From positions 1-10,010 of the forward strand of contig QKDJ01000246.1 in the NCBI GenBank assembly GCA_003252145.1: a stretch of 10,010 bases of DNA. The letters are read 5' to 3'. The notes under the pieces are model-generated. The model was given only the letters and a program-made list of their open reading frames with translations, did not search any database and was not told the origin of the DNA. A program made the position numbers and the translations under genes. This stretch comes from Azovibrio restrictus. GTDB lineage: Bacteria; Pseudomonadota; Gammaproteobacteria; Burkholderiales; Rhodocyclaceae. Below are positions 1,408-10,010 of the stretch, piece after piece. Each line of letters opens with the position of its first letter. Positions within the stretch are counted from its first letter, which is position 1.

Positions 1408-4245
<2,838 letters not shown>

Positions 4246-4259
4246 TCCCGTCCGAAACT

Positions 4260-4263
4260 GGAG
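4260..4263 (+). promoter_or_regulatory. Shine-Dalgarno GGAG of lptE
   Basis: GGAG lies 6 bases before the lptE ATG at 4270, within the 24-base gap after leuS. It supports that start, and with no terminator in the gap it supports co-transcription. Confidence 0.7.
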
Positions 4264-4269
4264 TAAGCC

Positions 4270-4791
4270 ATGCGCCTGATTCGTACCTGTCTGATGCTCT
4301 GTCTGGTCCTGTTGTTGGGAGCCTGCGGTTTCCACCTGCGTGGCTCCTTCGACATTCCCTACGAAGGCCTCTACATCGACCTGCCTGAGAATTCGGTGCT
4401 GGGCGCCGATCTGCGTCGCCAGATCAATGCCCACCAACCCCATTTGCTGGTGGAAGACCGGAAAAAAGCCAAGACCTTCTTCCGGCAGCTAGGCTCAGAC
4501 CGGGAACGGATCATCGCCGCCATCAACGCGGAAGGTCGGGCACGGGAATACCAACTGCGTTTGCGTTACTCGTTCAACGTGATTGATGACAAGGGACAGT
4601 CCCTGATCCCTCCCAACCAGATCATCCTGGCCCGGGAAGTCACCTATGACGATAACCAGGTTCTGGCCAAGGATCAGGAAGAAAACTTCCTCTGGCAGGA
4701 TATGGAGCGGGACCTGGCCCAACAGATTCTGCGGCGCCTGAGCGTAGTCCAGCCCAAGCCCAAGGCCCCTGCTGAGCCCGACGACAACTGA
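4270..4791 (+). CDS. lptE: LPS-assembly lipoprotein LptE
   Basis: Outer-membrane lipoprotein that plugs the LptD barrel and helps insert lipopolysaccharide into the outer leaflet. The 173-residue product starts with a lipoprotein signal: basic MRLIR, a hydrophobic stretch, then the lipobox LGAC with the lipidated cysteine at 19. Directly after it comes GFHLRG, the typical start of mature LptE. The body contains the expected beta-strand/helix pattern (QLRLRYSFNVID; ILAREVTYDDNQVLAKDQEE; QDMERDLAQQILRRL) and a proline/acid-rich tail. Its position between leuS and holA is the arrangement known in E. coli and many other proteobacteria, which supports the name. Its TGA shares one base with the holA ATG. 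Confidence 0.93.
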   Translation: MRLIRTCLMLCLVLLLGACGFHLRGSFDIPYEGLYIDLPENSVLGADLRRQINAHQPHLLVEDRKKAKTFFRQLGSDRERIIAAINAEGRAREYQLRLRYSFNVIDDKGQSLIPPNQIILAREVTYDDNQVLAKDQEENFLWQDMERDLAQQILRRLSVVQPKPKAPAEPDDN

Positions 4792-5798
4792 TGCAGATCA
4801 AGGGCGAGCAACTGGTCAGCCACCTGGAAGAGGGCATCAAGCCCCTCTATATGGTGTGCGGTGACTCGCCCCTGCTGGTGCTGGAGGCGGCAGACACCAT
4901 CCGTCAGGCAGCCCGCCATCGGGGTTACACGGAACGGGAAGTCCTCACCGTACTGTCCGGTTTTGACTGGGGACAACTGGCTGCCGCGACCGGCAACATG
5001 TCCCTGTTTGGCGGCCTGAAACTGGTGGATTTGCGCATTCCCAATGGCAAGCCAGGCAAGGACGGCAGCGCTGCCCTGACCGCCTACTGCCAGCACATGA
5101 GTCCCGATAATGTGCTCCTGATCACCCTGCCCCAACTGGATTGGAAAGAAGAAAAGGCCGCCTGGTTCACCACCCTGGCTCAGGCTGGCGTACTGGTCAA
5201 ACCTCAGGCGCCCAGCCTGGGCGAATTACCTGGCTGGATTGCCGGACGTCTGCGCCGTCAGCAACAAAGCGCCGATGATGAAGGACTACGTTTCATGGCG
5301 GAACGGGTGGAGGGCAACCTGCTGGCGGCCCATCAGGAAATCCAGAAACTGGGACTCCTGTACCCCACCGGCCAGATTTCCCTGGAACAGATTCGCGAAG
5401 CCGTACTCAATGTGGCCCGCTATAGCGTGGATGATGTGCGGGAGGCCCTACTCAGCGGTGACCTGCCGCGCCTGGCCCGAACTCTGGAAGGGCTTCATCA
5501 GGAAGGGGAGTCCCCGGTCCTGGTGCTCTGGGCCCTGACGGAAGAAATCCGTGCCCTGGCCCAGGTAAAGGCGGGAATGGCCCGCAATCAGAATATGGAC
5601 AGCCTGTTCCGGGAACTACGCATTTGGGGTCATCGGCAAGCCCAGGTGCGACGGGCCGCCCAACAATTGGGGGCCAAGGCTCTGAAATCGGCCCTTGAAC
5701 AGGCAGCCCGGCTGGACCGCTGCATCAAGGGCCTGGAAAGTGGAAGCGACCCTTGGGATGGCTTCCTGCGGTTGGGGATGTCCTTAGCCTTCCGCTGA
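4791..5798 (+). CDS. holA: DNA polymerase III delta subunit (clamp loader)
   Basis: The delta subunit is the clamp-loader component that opens the beta sliding clamp. The product is 335 residues, against 343 in E. coli. The N-terminus (QLVSHLEEGIKPLYMVCGDSPLLVLEAADTIRQAA) matches the family start. The clamp-binding motif MSLFGG carries Leu72-Phe73, equivalent to the beta-binding Leu-Phe of E. coli delta. The middle LLITLPQLDWKEEKAAWF and the C-terminal helical collar domain (VLVLWALTEEIRALAQV; ALEQAARLDRCIKG) are present. The TGATG junction with lptE implies translational coupling. The last 15 bases overlap the end of the minus-strand gene at 5784-6041, and no terminator is visible. Confidence 0.94.
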   Translation: MQIKGEQLVSHLEEGIKPLYMVCGDSPLLVLEAADTIRQAARHRGYTEREVLTVLSGFDWGQLAAATGNMSLFGGLKLVDLRIPNGKPGKDGSAALTAYCQHMSPDNVLLITLPQLDWKEEKAAWFTTLAQAGVLVKPQAPSLGELPGWIAGRLRRQQQSADDEGLRFMAERVEGNLLAAHQEIQKLGLLYPTGQISLEQIREAVLNVARYSVDDVREALLSGDLPRLARTLEGLHQEGESPVLVLWALTEEIRALAQVKAGMARNQNMDSLFRELRIWGHRQAQVRRAAQQLGAKALKSALEQAARLDRCIKGLESGSDPWDGFLRLGMSLAFR

Positions 5799-6041
5799 AG
5801 GCTTTTCCCCTGCCTCACCGTCGGCCGTATTTTCCGGCCCTAAATCGTCCCAAAGGCAATCCTCAAGGCAACGCACATCGGTCAATCCATGGGCTTGGCA
5901 TTCGGTGACCAGGCATTCCCCGTGGCAATCCTCATTGACCACCACCACCTGCATTTCCGTATCTACACGGCGCTCGCCATCCCAGTAACAGCAGGTCGCG
6001 CAGACTTTCACTTCTGCCGGAAGTATCAGTTTTTGTGTCAT
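5784..6041 (-). CDS. cysteine-rich small protein of unknown function
   Basis: An 85-residue acidic protein with eight cysteines at 14, 17, 18, 39, 43, 48, 58 and 62, arranged as CxxCC, then Cx3Cx4C, then Cx3C. The pattern CATCCYWDGERR resembles the opening of small metal-binding (zinc or iron-sulphur) domains. The last 20 or so residues are a low-complexity acidic/Gly/Pro tail. There is no signal peptide. It is convergent with holA, overlapping it by 15 bases, and divergent from proA with 136 bases between them. Upstream GGGGGCGGA is at best a weak ribosome binding site. Support for a real gene is the cysteine pattern, the position filling an otherwise empty gap and the intact frame; I do not recognise the family. 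It could be a spurious frame. Confidence 0.65.
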   Translation of the reverse strand: MTQKLILPAEVKVCATCCYWDGERRVDTEMQVVVVNEDCHGECLVTECQAHGLTDVRCLEDCLWDDLGPENTADGEAGEKPSAEG

Positions 6042-6076
6042 TCCGCCCCCAATGAAGGGATTTCCTCAATCAATGT

Positions 6077-6096
6077 GTGGGTAAGAGTTTACCCGC
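6077..6096. repeat. inverted repeat GGGTAA-GAGT-TTACCC in the proA/cysteine-rich gene divergent region
   Basis: Six perfect pairs (6079-6084 with 6089-6094) extend outward by a G-T and a G-C pair, around a 4-base loop. It lies between two divergent genes, about 30 bases upstream of the proA -10 candidate, so it could be an operator. There is no T-run, so it is not a terminator. Confidence 0.4.
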
Positions 6097-6125
6097 TCCC
6101 GAAAGGTTCCGTGGAGATTTACACC

Positions 6126-6131
6126 TATAAT
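6126..6131 (+). promoter_or_regulatory. -10 element TATAAT for proA
   Basis: A perfect TATAAT lies 46 bases before the proA ATG. The -35 region (AAGGTT at 6103-6108 for a 17-base spacer) is poor. The hexamer and its position upstream of the first gene of a run make it the likely promoter core of proA-ogt-xerD. Confidence 0.5.
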
Positions 6132-6150
6132 CTTCTTTTTGGATGAAGCT

Positions 6151-6170
6151 CCGGAAAACCCCGGAAAAAC
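6151..6170 (+). repeat. short tandem repeat in proA leader
   Basis: CCGGAAAACC is followed directly by CCGGAAAAAC, two 10-base units differing at one base, in the untranslated leader just before the proA start. The second GGA is the only Shine-Dalgarno-like sequence, 12 bases from the ATG, which is longer than ideal. Confidence 0.4.
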
Positions 6171-6177
6171 GATTCCC

Positions 6178-7398
6178 ATGGACATCAAGCACTACATGCA
6201 GACCCTGGGCCAACAGGCCCGTGCCGCCTCCCGCCATCTGGCCCGCGCCAGCACGGCAGAGAAGAATACCGCCCTGGAAGCCATTGCCGGCGCCATCCTG
6301 CGCGAAAAGGAGGCCCTGCTGGCTGCCAACCAGAAGGATCTGGATGCCGCCAAGGCCGCCGGTCTCGAACCCGCCATGCTGGACCGCCTGACCCTGACGG
6401 CCAAGGGCGTGGACAGCATGGCTGCCGGCGTGCTGCAGATTGCCCACCTAGCCGACCCCATCGGTGAAATGACCTACATCAAGTACCGCCCCTCCTGCAT
6501 TCAGGTGGGCAAGATGCGCGTGCCTCTCGGCGTCATCGGCATCGCCGCCCTGTGCCTGAAATCCGGCAACGCGGCCATCCTGCGGGGCGGCTCCGAAGCC
6601 ATTCACTGCAACCAGGCCATTGCTGCCCTGGTGCAGGAAGGCCTGCGCACCGCCGGTCTACCGGCCGAGGCCGTACAGGTGGTGGAAACCACTGACCGGG
6701 CCGCCGTGGGCGAACTGATCACCATGCGCGAATACGTGGATGTGATCGTGCCCCGGGGCGGCAAGGGCCTGATCGCCCGCCTGCTGGCCGAAGCCCGGGT
6801 GCCCATGATCCAGCACCTGGACGGCAACTGCCACGTGTATCTGGAAGCAGAAGCCGACCCCAACAAGGCCCTGCGCATTGTGGAGAATGCCAAGACCCAG
6901 CGTTATGGCACCTGCAACACGGCGGAATCCCTGTTGGTGGATCGGGAAGTGGCCAAGATGCTGCTACCCATGATCGGCCACATGCTCACCGAAAAGGGCG
7001 TGGAAATCCGCGGCTGCGCAGAAACCCTGGCCCTCATCGCCAACGCCCAGGCCGCCACGGACGAGGATTACGCCACCGAATACCTGGCCCCGGTCATTTC
7101 CGTGAAGGTGGTGGAAGGTATCGACGAAGCCATCGCCCATATCAACCAGTATTCCTCTCACCATACGGAAGCCATCGTCACGGAAAACCATACCCTGGCC
7201 ATGCGCTTCCTGCGGGAAGTGGACTCCAGCTCGGTGATGATCAATGCCTCCACCCGCTTCGCCGACGGCTTCGAGTACGGCCTGGGGGCTGAAATCGGCA
7301 TCTCCACCGACAAGATTCACGCCCGGGGCCCCGTGGGCCTGGAAGGCCTGACCAGTCAGAAATGGGTGGTCTTCGGTAATGGCCACGTGCGCGGCTGA
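6178..7398 (+). CDS. proA: gamma-glutamyl phosphate reductase, with an internal 12-residue gap at a conserved motif
   Basis: ProA reduces gamma-glutamyl phosphate to glutamate semialdehyde with NADPH, the second step of proline synthesis. The 406-residue product starts [19 protein letters not shown], the typical betaproteobacterial start, so I chose the ATG at 6178 over the open frame from 6139. Nearly all family landmarks are present: [47 protein letters not shown], catalytic cysteine 246 in [23 protein letters not shown] and [14 protein letters not shown]. However, GVIGI (118-122) runs straight into [10 protein letters not shown]. coli and every ProA I can recall carry IYEARPNVT plus three further residues between these, so 12 residues are missing. 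Adding 12 gives 418, the usual family length. In this aldehyde-dehydrogenase fold, that loop carries the asparagine matching the oxyanion-hole residue, so activity is doubtful. The last 20 bases overlap ogt. Confidence 0.93.
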
Positions 7399-7879
7399 CG
7401 CCACCGACCTCCCCTTCGACGCCGTCGTGGCTGCCCCGGGCTTCGCTCTGGGCGTGCGCTGCGGCGGGGAGGCCCTGACGGCCGTCCGTTTTCTTGAGCC
7501 CCGCCCGTCTCAGGCAGGCAGCACCGCCCTGGCTCAAGAAGCTGCCCGGCAATTGCAAGCCTGGCTGCAGGACGCCCGCTTTGGCTTCGACCTGCCCCTG
7601 CATCCTCAAGGTACGGATTTCCAGCATCGGGTCTGGCAGCAGATTGCCGCCATTCCCCTGGCTCAAACCCGCAGCTACGGCCAACTGGCTCAAGCCCTGG
7701 GCAGCGGCCCTCGGGCTGTGGGCGGTGCCTGTGGCGCCAATCCCCTGCCCGTCATCGTGCCCTGCCACCGGGTATTGGCCGCCCACGGAGGCCTGGGAGG
7801 CTTCAACCGGGCCCGGGGTGGTTTTCTTCTGGATGTGAAACGCTGGCTCCTGGCCCATGAAGCGTCAGCAGCCCGCTGA
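7379..7879 (+). CDS. ogt: methylated-DNA--protein-cysteine S-methyltransferase
   Basis: Suicidal repair protein that transfers alkyl groups from O6-alkylguanine (and O4-alkylthymine) to its own cysteine. The 166-residue product has a variable N-terminal domain (1-75) and the conserved DNA-binding/active-site domain: [26 protein letters not shown], the arginine-finger region [14 protein letters not shown] (R112), and the active site PCHRV at 128-132 with acceptor Cys129. It ends with the expected [15 protein letters not shown]. There is no Ada-type N-terminal methylphosphotriester domain or AraC domain, so this is the stand-alone Ogt/MGMT type; Ogt versus AdaB naming is uncertain. The start lies inside proA (20-base overlap) and its end overlaps xerD by 23 bases, so it is probably translated by coupling. 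Confidence 0.93.
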
Positions 7880-8792
7880 ACCACACGCCCCCCTGCGGCC
7901 AGAGGACCTGGCTGACATCGACATCTTCTGCGATGCCCTGTGGCTGGAAGATGGCCTGGCCAAGACCACCCTGGATAGCTACCGCATGGACCTGTCAGCC
8001 CTGGCCCGCTGGCTGGGCACGGAACAACGCCCCGCCCTGCTCCAGGCCAGCGAAGCCGACCTGCTGGCCTTTGTGGCCCGGCTCTCCCGGGAAAAGAAAG
8101 CCACCTCCCAATCCCGCTACCTTTCCAGCCTGCGCCGTTTCTACCGCTGGCAAGTGAGCCGGGGACGACTGGCCGCCGACCCTACGGGCCGACTATCCCG
8201 CCCTGTCACCCCCGGGCGCCTGCCCAAGGTGCTCTCGGAAGCCCAGGTGGAAGCCCTGCTGCAAGCGCCTGATCTGGATACCCCTCTGGGCCAACGGGAC
8301 CGGGCCATGCTGGAAACCCTCTACGCCACGGGCCTGCGAGTCTCGGAACTGGTAGGTCTGAAACTGCACGAAATCGGTTTCAACGAGGGGGTGGTGCGGG
8401 TCATGGGCAAGGGCAGCAAGGAGCGCCTGGTCCCCCTGGGAGAAGAGGCCCTGGAGTGGCTGCGCACCTTCATTCAGGAGGGCCGGGCCCAACTCCTGGC
8501 CGACCGCCCCTGCGAAGCCGTATTCGTCACCGCCCGGGCCGCCCCCATGACCCGGCAGATGTTCTGGACCCTGATCAAGGGCTACGCTACCCGGGCAGGC
8601 ATCGCCCGGGAACAGTTATCCCCCCACGTGCTGCGCCACGCCTTTGCCACCCACCTGCTCAACCACGGAGCAGACCTGCGGGTGGTGCAACTGTTGCTGG
8701 GCCACGCGGACATCACCACCACCCAGATTTACACCCATGTAGCCCGGGAACGGCTGAAGCGCTTGCACGGCGTTCACCATCCCCGAGGCTGA
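7857..8792 (+). CDS. xerD: tyrosine recombinase XerD
   Basis: Site-specific recombinase that, with XerC, resolves chromosome dimers at dif during FtsK-driven segregation. The 311-residue product has the N-terminal SAM-like core-binding domain (DIDIFCDALWLEDGLAKTTL onward) and the full catalytic set: R161 (TGLRVSELV), K185 (GKGSKERLVP), H257 and R260 (SPHVLRHAFATHLL), H283 (LLLGHADITTTQIYTH) and nucleophile Y292. Each is offset by exactly 13 from E. coli XerD (148, 172, 244, 247, 270, 279) because of a longer N-terminus. The C-terminal LHGVHHPRG matches XerD (HQQHHPRA) rather than XerC. The ATG is inside ogt with no Shine-Dalgarno visible. No dif-like site was seen in the window. Confidence 0.95.
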   Translation: MKRQQPAEPHAPLRPEDLADIDIFCDALWLEDGLAKTTLDSYRMDLSALARWLGTEQRPALLQASEADLLAFVARLSREKKATSQSRYLSSLRRFYRWQVSRGRLAADPTGRLSRPVTPGRLPKVLSEAQVEALLQAPDLDTPLGQRDRAMLETLYATGLRVSELVGLKLHEIGFNEGVVRVMGKGSKERLVPLGEEALEWLRTFIQEGRAQLLADRPCEAVFVTARAAPMTRQMFWTLIKGYATRAGIAREQLSPHVLRHAFATHLLNHGADLRVVQLLLGHADITTTQIYTHVARERLKRLHGVHHPRG

Positions 8793-8808
8793 GGGCTATC
8801 ATTCACTC

Positions 8809-9300
8809 ATGAAACACGATACCCACGCCCCCGAAACCCCGGCCACCCAGTTCCTGCGCCAGCACAAGATCGCCTTCTCCACCCACCTCTACGAGTATGT
8901 GGAACATGGGGGCACTTCCGTTTCAGCCAGCAGCTTGAATGTGGATGAACATGCGGTGGTGAAGACCCTGATCTTCCAGGACGAAGCCGCCAAACCCCTG
9001 ATCGTGCTCATGCATGGGGATTGCAAGGTGTCCGCCAAGGAATTGGCCCGTCAGGCTGCTCGCAAGAAGGTGGAACCCTGCAAGCCGGAAGTGGCCCAGC
9101 GCCATACGGGTTACATGGTGGGGGGCACCAGCCCCTTCGGCACGAAAAAGGCCTTACCCGTGTATCTGGAAAAAACCATCCTGGACCAGGCTCTGATCTA
9201 CATCAACGGCGGAAGACGGGGATTTCTCGTGGGTATTCACCCCCACGATCTGATCACCCTGCTAAACCCCACCCAGGTGAGTGTCGCCCTGGAAAAATGA
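8809..9300 (+). CDS. ybaK: Cys-tRNA(Pro)/Cys-tRNA(Cys) deacylase YbaK
   Basis: Editing protein that hydrolyses cysteine wrongly attached to tRNA-Pro by prolyl-tRNA synthetase. The 163-residue product matches YbaK (159 in E. coli). It has the catalytic lysine at 52 in VVKTLIF (E. coli K46 position), the hydrophobic core strand PLIVLMHGD, VSAKELAR, and the signature GYMVGGTSPFGTKK followed by LPVYLEKTILD and IYINGGRRGFLVGI. The ATG at 8809 lies 16 bases after the xerD stop. GAGGG at 8791-8795 is too far to be a convincing ribosome binding site, so coupling to xerD is possible. Its TGA directly abuts the folB stop on the other strand. Confidence 0.93.
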   Translation: MKHDTHAPETPATQFLRQHKIAFSTHLYEYVEHGGTSVSASSLNVDEHAVVKTLIFQDEAAKPLIVLMHGDCKVSAKELARQAARKKVEPCKPEVAQRHTGYMVGGTSPFGTKKALPVYLEKTILDQALIYINGGRRGFLVGIHPHDLITLLNPTQVSVALEK

Positions 9301-9651
9301 TCAGGCGGAGCGCTCGATGATGACGCCCACCCGCTTGACCCCCTTCATCATGCCCAGCTTGGCCACGGAAATACGCACCCACTGGGCGGCATAGTCTTCC
9401 AGGATCAAGGTGGCCACGAATTCCGCCAGTTTTTCCAGCAGATTGAAGTGGCGGGCCGCCAGCTCTCCCCGCAGACGCTCGGTCACCACCGCATAGTCAA
9501 TGGTGTCGCGGATATCGTCGCTGGCGCCTGCCGAGGCGGTAGACGCCCCCATCTGGATATCCAGTATCACAGTCTGAGGCATGGCCTTTTCCCGGGGGTA
9601 AATCCCGATCCAGGTTTCAGCGCGCAGCTCTTCGATAAAGATGATGTCCAT
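9301..9651 (-). CDS. folB: dihydroneopterin aldolase
   Basis: Cleaves 7,8-dihydroneopterin to 6-hydroxymethyl-dihydropterin and glycolaldehyde in folate synthesis. The 116-residue product starts MDIIFIEELRAETWIGIYPRE, very close to E. coli FolB (MDIVFIEQL). Family residues are present: E21, Y53 (IDYAVVTE), E73 (NLLEKLAEFVA) and the catalytic lysine K98 (ISVAKLG), ending VGVIIERSA. One small departure is KLG where KPG is common after the lysine. It is divergent from plsY across a 78-base gap and convergent with ybaK with no gap. A folB-plsY neighbourhood is common in proteobacteria. Confidence 0.94.
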   Translation of the reverse strand: MDIIFIEELRAETWIGIYPREKAMPQTVILDIQMGASTASAGASDDIRDTIDYAVVTERLRGELAARHFNLLEKLAEFVATLILEDYAAQWVRISVAKLGMMKGVKRVGVIIERSA

Positions 9652-9729
9652 TCGTGGGGGAGTGTAGAATCTGGCGCCGCATTGTAACCCAGCTCAACCC
9701 CTCCGTTTCCACCTGCCCCCTATCTGCCC

Positions 9730-10010
9730 ATGAGCCCTGCGCTGACTACCCTGATCGCCTGTATCGCCGCCTACCTGCTGGGCTCCATTTCCTTTGCCGT
9801 GCTGAGCGCCAAGCTCTTCAAGATGGCAGACCCGCGCAGCTACGGTTCCGGCAACCCGGGGGCCACCAATGTGCTGCGCAGCGGCAACAAGAAAGCCGCC
9901 CTGTTCACCCTGCTGGGAGATGCCCTGAAGGGCACGGCGGCCGTACTGGTGGCCAAGGCCCTGGAACTGCCGGGTGACACGATCGGCCTGGTGGCCCTGG
10001 CCGTATTCCT
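9730..10010 (+). CDS. plsY: glycerol-3-phosphate acyltransferase PlsY, N-terminal part (3' end beyond window)
   Basis: Inner-membrane enzyme that moves the acyl group from acyl-phosphate to glycerol-3-phosphate, making lysophosphatidic acid, the first step of phospholipid synthesis. The 93 visible codons show a first membrane helix ([21 protein letters not shown]), the signature [12 protein letters not shown] at 39-50, the start of the second conserved block LLGDALKG at 61-68, and the beginning of further membrane segments. The ATG at 9730 gives the family start, with the first helix beginning directly; no strong Shine-Dalgarno is visible. It is divergent from folB. A weak -10-like TAGAAT at 9665-9670 lies in the gap but has no convincing -35 partner. 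Confidence 0.95.

Follow-up and report, generated by a model that had tools for sequence, protein, structure and literature searches.

A clean in-frame gap of 12 codons in a near-invariant block of proA in a draft genome of Azovibrio restrictus

The proA gene and its missing block

Does a proA gene that lacks a near-invariant block and is otherwise well kept belong to an organism without a working enzyme, to one that uses a shortened enzyme, or to one whose sequence is wrong at this place? The question is raised by a contig of Azovibrio restrictus, of which we analyzed a stretch of 10,010 nt (the window) with the following features:

6178–7398, plus strand: proA, coding for glutamate-5-semialdehyde dehydrogenase (gamma-glutamyl phosphate reductase), 406 codons plus stop, ATG at 6178
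6543/6544, plus strand: junction lacking 36 nt, or 12 codons, which in near relatives encode IYEARPNVTADA, as placed by the PDB alignment and the relatives' rows
6913–6915, plus strand: codon of Cys246, intact; its catalytic role is taken from the homologous Cys of P5CS, named as catalytic in PMC8963878
7379–7879, plus strand: ogt, coding for methylated-DNA--protein-cysteine methyltransferase, above the TIGR00589 cut-off, overlapping the end of proA by 20 nt
First part of the window, in gene order: end of a uvrD-like helicase gene (minus strand), an ORF without family match, leuS, lptE, holA
Second part of the window, in gene order: proA, ogt, xerD, ybaK, folB (minus strand), start of plsY

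The gene names are those of NCBIfam, with LptE, the FolB equivalog and the incomplete PlsY and UvrD pieces scoring below the equivalog cut-offs. The program-made ORF listing opens the proA frame at an upstream TTG (6139), and the ATG at 6178 is used here. The product matches the ProA family profiles NF001221 of NCBIfam (559.4 bits, cut-off 289) and TIGR00407 (452.4 bits, cut-off 317.45) and aligns with PDB chain 4ghk_A at 6.1e-159; its start and its end are both present in the profile matches and in the PDB alignment. The motif YGTCN at residues 243–247 includes Cys246, which is aligned in the comparison with solved chains, occupies an invariant column and is indeed intact, as the initial annotation had noted. 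The overlap of proA and ogt is also found in the comparison genome G001, with which the contig is otherwise syntenic. It had further been argued that an in-frame loss keeps the start of ogt. The ATG at 7379 on the plus strand is present, but it would be there either way, and the frame of proA is relevant only to translational coupling.

In the window protein, GVIGI (residues 118–122) is joined directly to AALCLKSGN, which leaves a 12-residue hole against the PDB chains 4ghk, 1o20 and 8zok, and a blastn comparison with G001 placed a gap of 36 at 6543. With the relatives' DNA as proxy, the hole may also be set one base earlier. The GVIGI-IYEARPNVT block thus lacks 12 residues, and the absence of this near-invariant piece as a clean in-frame 12-codon gap at 6543/6544, first read from the sequence of the window, is confirmed both by the PDB chains and by the relatives' DNA. 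The sum of 406 and 12 residues had been given as the normal length of 418, and the closest homologs among the matches listed are 418 aa long.

To judge from homology and from the folds of aldehyde dehydrogenases, the lost piece presumably lies between a strand and a helix of the NADPH-binding (cofactor) domain and connects the two. The motif [YF]E-[AS]-RP within it is common to five aligned chains (three ProA and two P5CS). To judge from the sequence, a ProA protein without the block is probably inactive, in line with the initial annotation. The more specific proposal that the lost Asn corresponds to the oxyanion-hole Asn of aldehyde dehydrogenases turned out to be weak: the column holds Asp in the P5CS chains 7f5t and 2h5g, three of the 228 other homologs have Ser or Ile there, and an ambiguous alignment to one aldehyde dehydrogenase of the same genome sets the Asn of the latter opposite Arg, two residues off. 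For P5CS, an NADPH-binding domain is described in PMC8963878.

Distribution of the block and constraint on the remaining protein

The initial annotation had called for a comparison with ProA of relatives. We collected 105 loci, 98 of which had a match across the site, three being the window's own; some of these rows represent one gene present in two collections, and the relatives are the best 80 of 473. None of the 95 other rows lacked the block, which appeared as IYEARPNVTADA or as a form with one substitution. In an alignment of 81 distinct rows of full-length ProA, of which L014 was empty and left out, the block was present in all 80 usable rows and 10 of its 12 columns showed no variation, which bears out the high conservation previously ascribed to it. 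Two protein-database searches, each giving the best 120 of 8000 scored candidates, yielded 229 proteins including the window's own, and all 228 others keep the block (225 by motif and three in which RPN is replaced by RPS or RPI). Among the matches listed, this includes the nearest proteins P0002, P0003 and P0004, which are 91, 91 and 90% identical to the window protein. When the junction region (residues 106–147) was used as the query, the own protein scored 79 bits and the next 59 bits among the matches listed (best 120 of 8000).

At the level of the order, 142 of 150 genomes contained a ProA match. We set aside the own row, three genomes in which the match was split or partial and one in which it was weak. 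Each of the remaining 137 near-full-length rows exceeds the matching stretch of the window protein by at least 33 nt; they are therefore long enough for the block, and by length none has the same loss. ProA matches were present in 16 of 20 genus genomes, the own one included, and those of the genus are 74–91% identical to the window protein. The five aligned solved chains (three ProA, two P5CS) all keep the block at the same length. A natural variant with the same gap was thus not found among the locus rows, the fetched homologs and the order-level matches.

Other peculiarities of ProA were observed in the same material. Ser or Ile replaces the near-invariant Asn of RPNVT in the homologs P0141, P0153 and P0191. 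The draft CTSoil_120 (L093:2001-3170) has another in-frame gap, of 27 residues, in the part of ProA beyond about window residue 266. Contig C6 of G002 carries two proA-like copies about 6.6 kb apart (L019 and L023), each 77% identical to the window protein, and contig C28 of G005 (L014 / L024) contains about 20 extra proA codons near residues 53–66.

We then considered whether the rest of the gene is decaying. A proA pseudogene in decay was rejected: the frame is open throughout, with no frameshift and no stop, and the protein differs at only one (G107C) of 140 columns that are invariant among 199 other rows. With a looser definition, it differs at one of 231 near-invariant columns; one such departure was found in 18 of 82 rows and none in 45 of 82, where the 82 count the window and one empty row. 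LeuS from the same window served as a control and showed one departure in 375 invariant columns and four never-seen residues. If ProA had evolved neutrally since the split from G001, about 65 departures would be expected in the 140 columns and about 107 in the 231 columns, as calculated from the dS of 0.410 between the window and G001, halved for the branch, and an assumed value of about 2.25 non-synonymous sites per codon. Because one was observed, the neutral time amounts to at most about 7% or about 5% of the branch, respectively. A very young null allele would look equally undecayed. From the constraint on the remaining protein it follows that the gap is very young, or that it is absent from the organism, or that the protein still works.

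ProA on the window's line has accumulated more residue changes than on the sister line (18.5 vs. 6.5 with P0002, 19.5 vs. 7.5 with P0003 and 19 vs. 10 with P0004), and the corresponding numbers for LeuS are 25–27 vs. 16–20. ProA was not significantly accelerated, either relative to the other window genes (p 0.17) or relative to LeuS (p 0.43). As a separate observation, positions 1601–10010 of the window show a bias from G/C to A/T, with 373 vs. 126 changes on the window's side and 140 vs. 139 on the side of G001, and residue changes in eight window genes number 164 on the window's side vs. 51. These branch counts took G004 as outgroup and overstate the window's side, because, by ProA distances, G001 is closer to G004.

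Three residues of the window protein were never seen in the other rows:

6433–6435, plus strand: codon of Leu86 (R86L); residue in 0 of 199 other ProA rows
6475–6477, plus strand: codon of Tyr100 (D100Y); elsewhere mostly Asp or Glu, Tyr in 0 of 199; G>T at the first codon position
6496–6498, plus strand: codon of Cys107 (G107C); Gly in 199 of 199 other rows; G>T at the first codon position

All three sit 15 to 36 residues 5' of the junction. The chance of three random positions falling within 36 residues on either side is about 0.006, for an interval that was chosen post hoc, and at the base level two of four never-seen bases are near the junction. Because 41 of the 199 other rows also contain at least three never-seen residues, the count as such is ordinary and the clustering alone is suggestive; it fits either a poorly read stretch or a local adaptation to the gap.

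Origin of the gap

Our reading is that the organism may well carry, or may until very recently have carried, an ordinary full-length ProA, and we regard the chances as evenly balanced that a local error of sequencing or assembly produced the 36-nt gap in this fragmentary draft, e.g., through a chimeric read or one of low quality where coverage was thin. Such an error is slightly likelier than a very young null mutation, and a working short enzyme is unlikely. The possibility of a wrong sequence at this place, already raised by the initial annotation, is thus supported as a live option. In favor of an error, the gap is private as far as we searched, and the rest of proA is under full constraint.

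The quality of the source draft (G000; 1.87 Mb, 363 contigs, 57% complete) bears on this reading from both sides, its fragmentary state speaking for an error. We compared 40 of its contig stretches, five of which were masked and dropped, with about 1.77 Mb of G001, with some overlap; about 234 kb including the window was usable. The 100 accepted protein blocks (30,427 aligned residues) partly overlap, and some are stop-to-stop frames rather than genes. They contain 20 listed gaps of at least four residues, ProA's included, and none but that of ProA is flanked on either side by 15 identical residues. A gap of 4 residues in L113, whose flanks are fairly well conserved, comes next, and the others lie in variable stretches, as judged by eye. 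None of five listed frameshift candidates in these blocks was judged real, four of them belonging to frames that precede or overlap accepted genes and the fifth being a 62%-identical extension. At the DNA level, 31 aligned pieces (88,769 columns) contained 21 gaps of at least 9 nt, one of them counted twice; the longest is the 36 nt of proA, followed by 18 nt, several are not multiples of three, and by their coordinates many of the others fall at gene ends. A generally error-rich draft is not supported by these data, as no convincing further indel errors turned up in about 234 kb compared with part of G001. The clean rest of the draft argues against widespread errors and leaves the case for a single local one untouched.

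Contigs of two other fragmentary drafts of the genus, G014 (L021) and G018 (L022, L025), end inside proA, at residues of about 109, 182 and 66, which we also count for an error. The leuS gene of G004 gave two matches that overlap at about residue 630–636 of the window LeuS (L107:2348-2366), resembling a change of frame.

The breakpoints offer little that would promote a natural deletion. The left flank GGCATC meets GCCGCC, and with the relatives' DNA taken as proxy, the sole homology is one C common to both edges; if the lost residues were those of the relatives, synonymous codons for the I-Y and D-A ends would never give more than one common base. With one base in common, a repeat-mediated deletion was rejected and slippage between repeats is unlikely, so that end-joining or a chimeric read remain. 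A hairpin-mediated deletion was likewise rejected, because the intact site of G001 folds no better than shuffled sequences (z 0.49). The joined site of the window forms a somewhat more stable fold than its shuffled versions (z −1.71; 9 of 200 were as good), which is uninformative on the lost piece. A chimeric join of two strains is disfavored, although not wholly: DNA identity to G001 and G004 does not change abruptly at the junction, but the protein is more divergent before it than after it, with 12/122 vs. 13/284 residues to P0002 and 18/122 vs. 20/283 residues to G001 (control pair P0002–G001, 10/122 vs. 16/295). The minimal homology and the cluster of never-seen residues 5' of the junction count for an error. 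Points against it are the exactly in-frame loss, for which there is one chance in three, the clean assembly elsewhere, the lack of a DNA identity step at the junction and the weakness of the residue cluster at the base level.

Somewhat short of an even chance, we place a real and very young null mutation, by which 12 codons of proA would have been lost, the enzyme would be dead and the strain would depend on outside proline. Apart from the gap, the contig is clean and in synteny with G001, and ProA has changed faster than on the sister line, if not significantly differently from LeuS. Such a mutation must be younger than about 5–7% of the branch, because the other invariant positions are nearly untouched, and it would have arisen without any repeat at the breakpoints. 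The initial annotation had considered a second proA or an ornithine cyclodeaminase as ways around the defect. Neither bypass was found in the own genome (57% complete): it gave one proA match only, and PF02423 for ornithine cyclodeaminase was found in 0 of 20 genus genomes, with matches in 8 of 14 known genomes in a control search. This lack of a bypass again counts for an error. The own genome further contains a complete proB and part of a proC with a score below its cut-off.

Evidence for a real loss comes from the genus member G003, which is 95% complete, has proB and proC and gave no proA match. There, holA is followed by cytochrome-c-like and elongation factor P (efp)-like ORFs (L259, L253; judged by eye), and the ogt-xerD pair adjoins another neighbour, neither holA nor ogt lying beside proA. 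A real loss is therefore possible in the genus, and G003 accordingly also stands against an error in the window; the loss of proA in the genus may be real, or the sequence of G003 may be incomplete there.

It is very improbable that a shortened ProA still works, with GVIGI running straight into the helix and R86L, D100Y and G107C upstream compensating for the lost piece. The kept frame, the kept Cys246, the 139 of 140 invariant positions and the three never-seen residues just upstream of the gap would suit such an enzyme, but all five aligned solved chains keep the block at an unchanged length, it is present in the relatives examined, and by homology the lost piece should link strand and helix in the NADPH-binding domain. 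Slightly less credible still is the general claim that follows from it, namely a natural ProA that is active without the YE-x-RP[ND] loop by virtue of R86L, D100Y and G107C, the loop being dispensable in the family. A strain mixture, in which most of the population would have an intact gene and the consensus would represent a minority null allele, is as improbable as a working short enzyme: it is compatible with the clean flanks and the nearly untouched invariant columns, but the same bin contains no second proA contig.

Consequences and comparison with known systems

If the gap is an error, it illustrates that an in-frame gap in a draft can escape annotation and give a false metabolic picture, because the family model still scores far above its cut-off. 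If it is real and null, it would represent a proline auxotrophy at its birth, in a genus with one other member that is maybe already without proA. If it is real and the enzyme active, a block kept in bacterial ProA and P5CS would be dispensable.

In-frame deletion alleles and assembly indels in housekeeping genes of draft genomes likewise consist of a single clean event in a constrained gene; compared with these in general, there is nothing distinctive about the window proA. Among solved structures, chain 2h5g is human P5CS. The window protein resembles the ProA family (NF001221, TIGR00407; 4ghk, 1o20, 8zok) in its profile scores above the cut-offs, in both ends and in the catalytic Cys, and differs from it by lacking the 12 block residues that the examined members keep. 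It also belongs to the same family as the GPR domain of P5CS, represented by 2h5g and by 7f5t, the latter being Drosophila P5CS according to the entry list of PMC8963878. The order of motifs is the same in both, and the block reads IFESRPD in either P5CS chain, where it has its full length, unlike that of the window protein.
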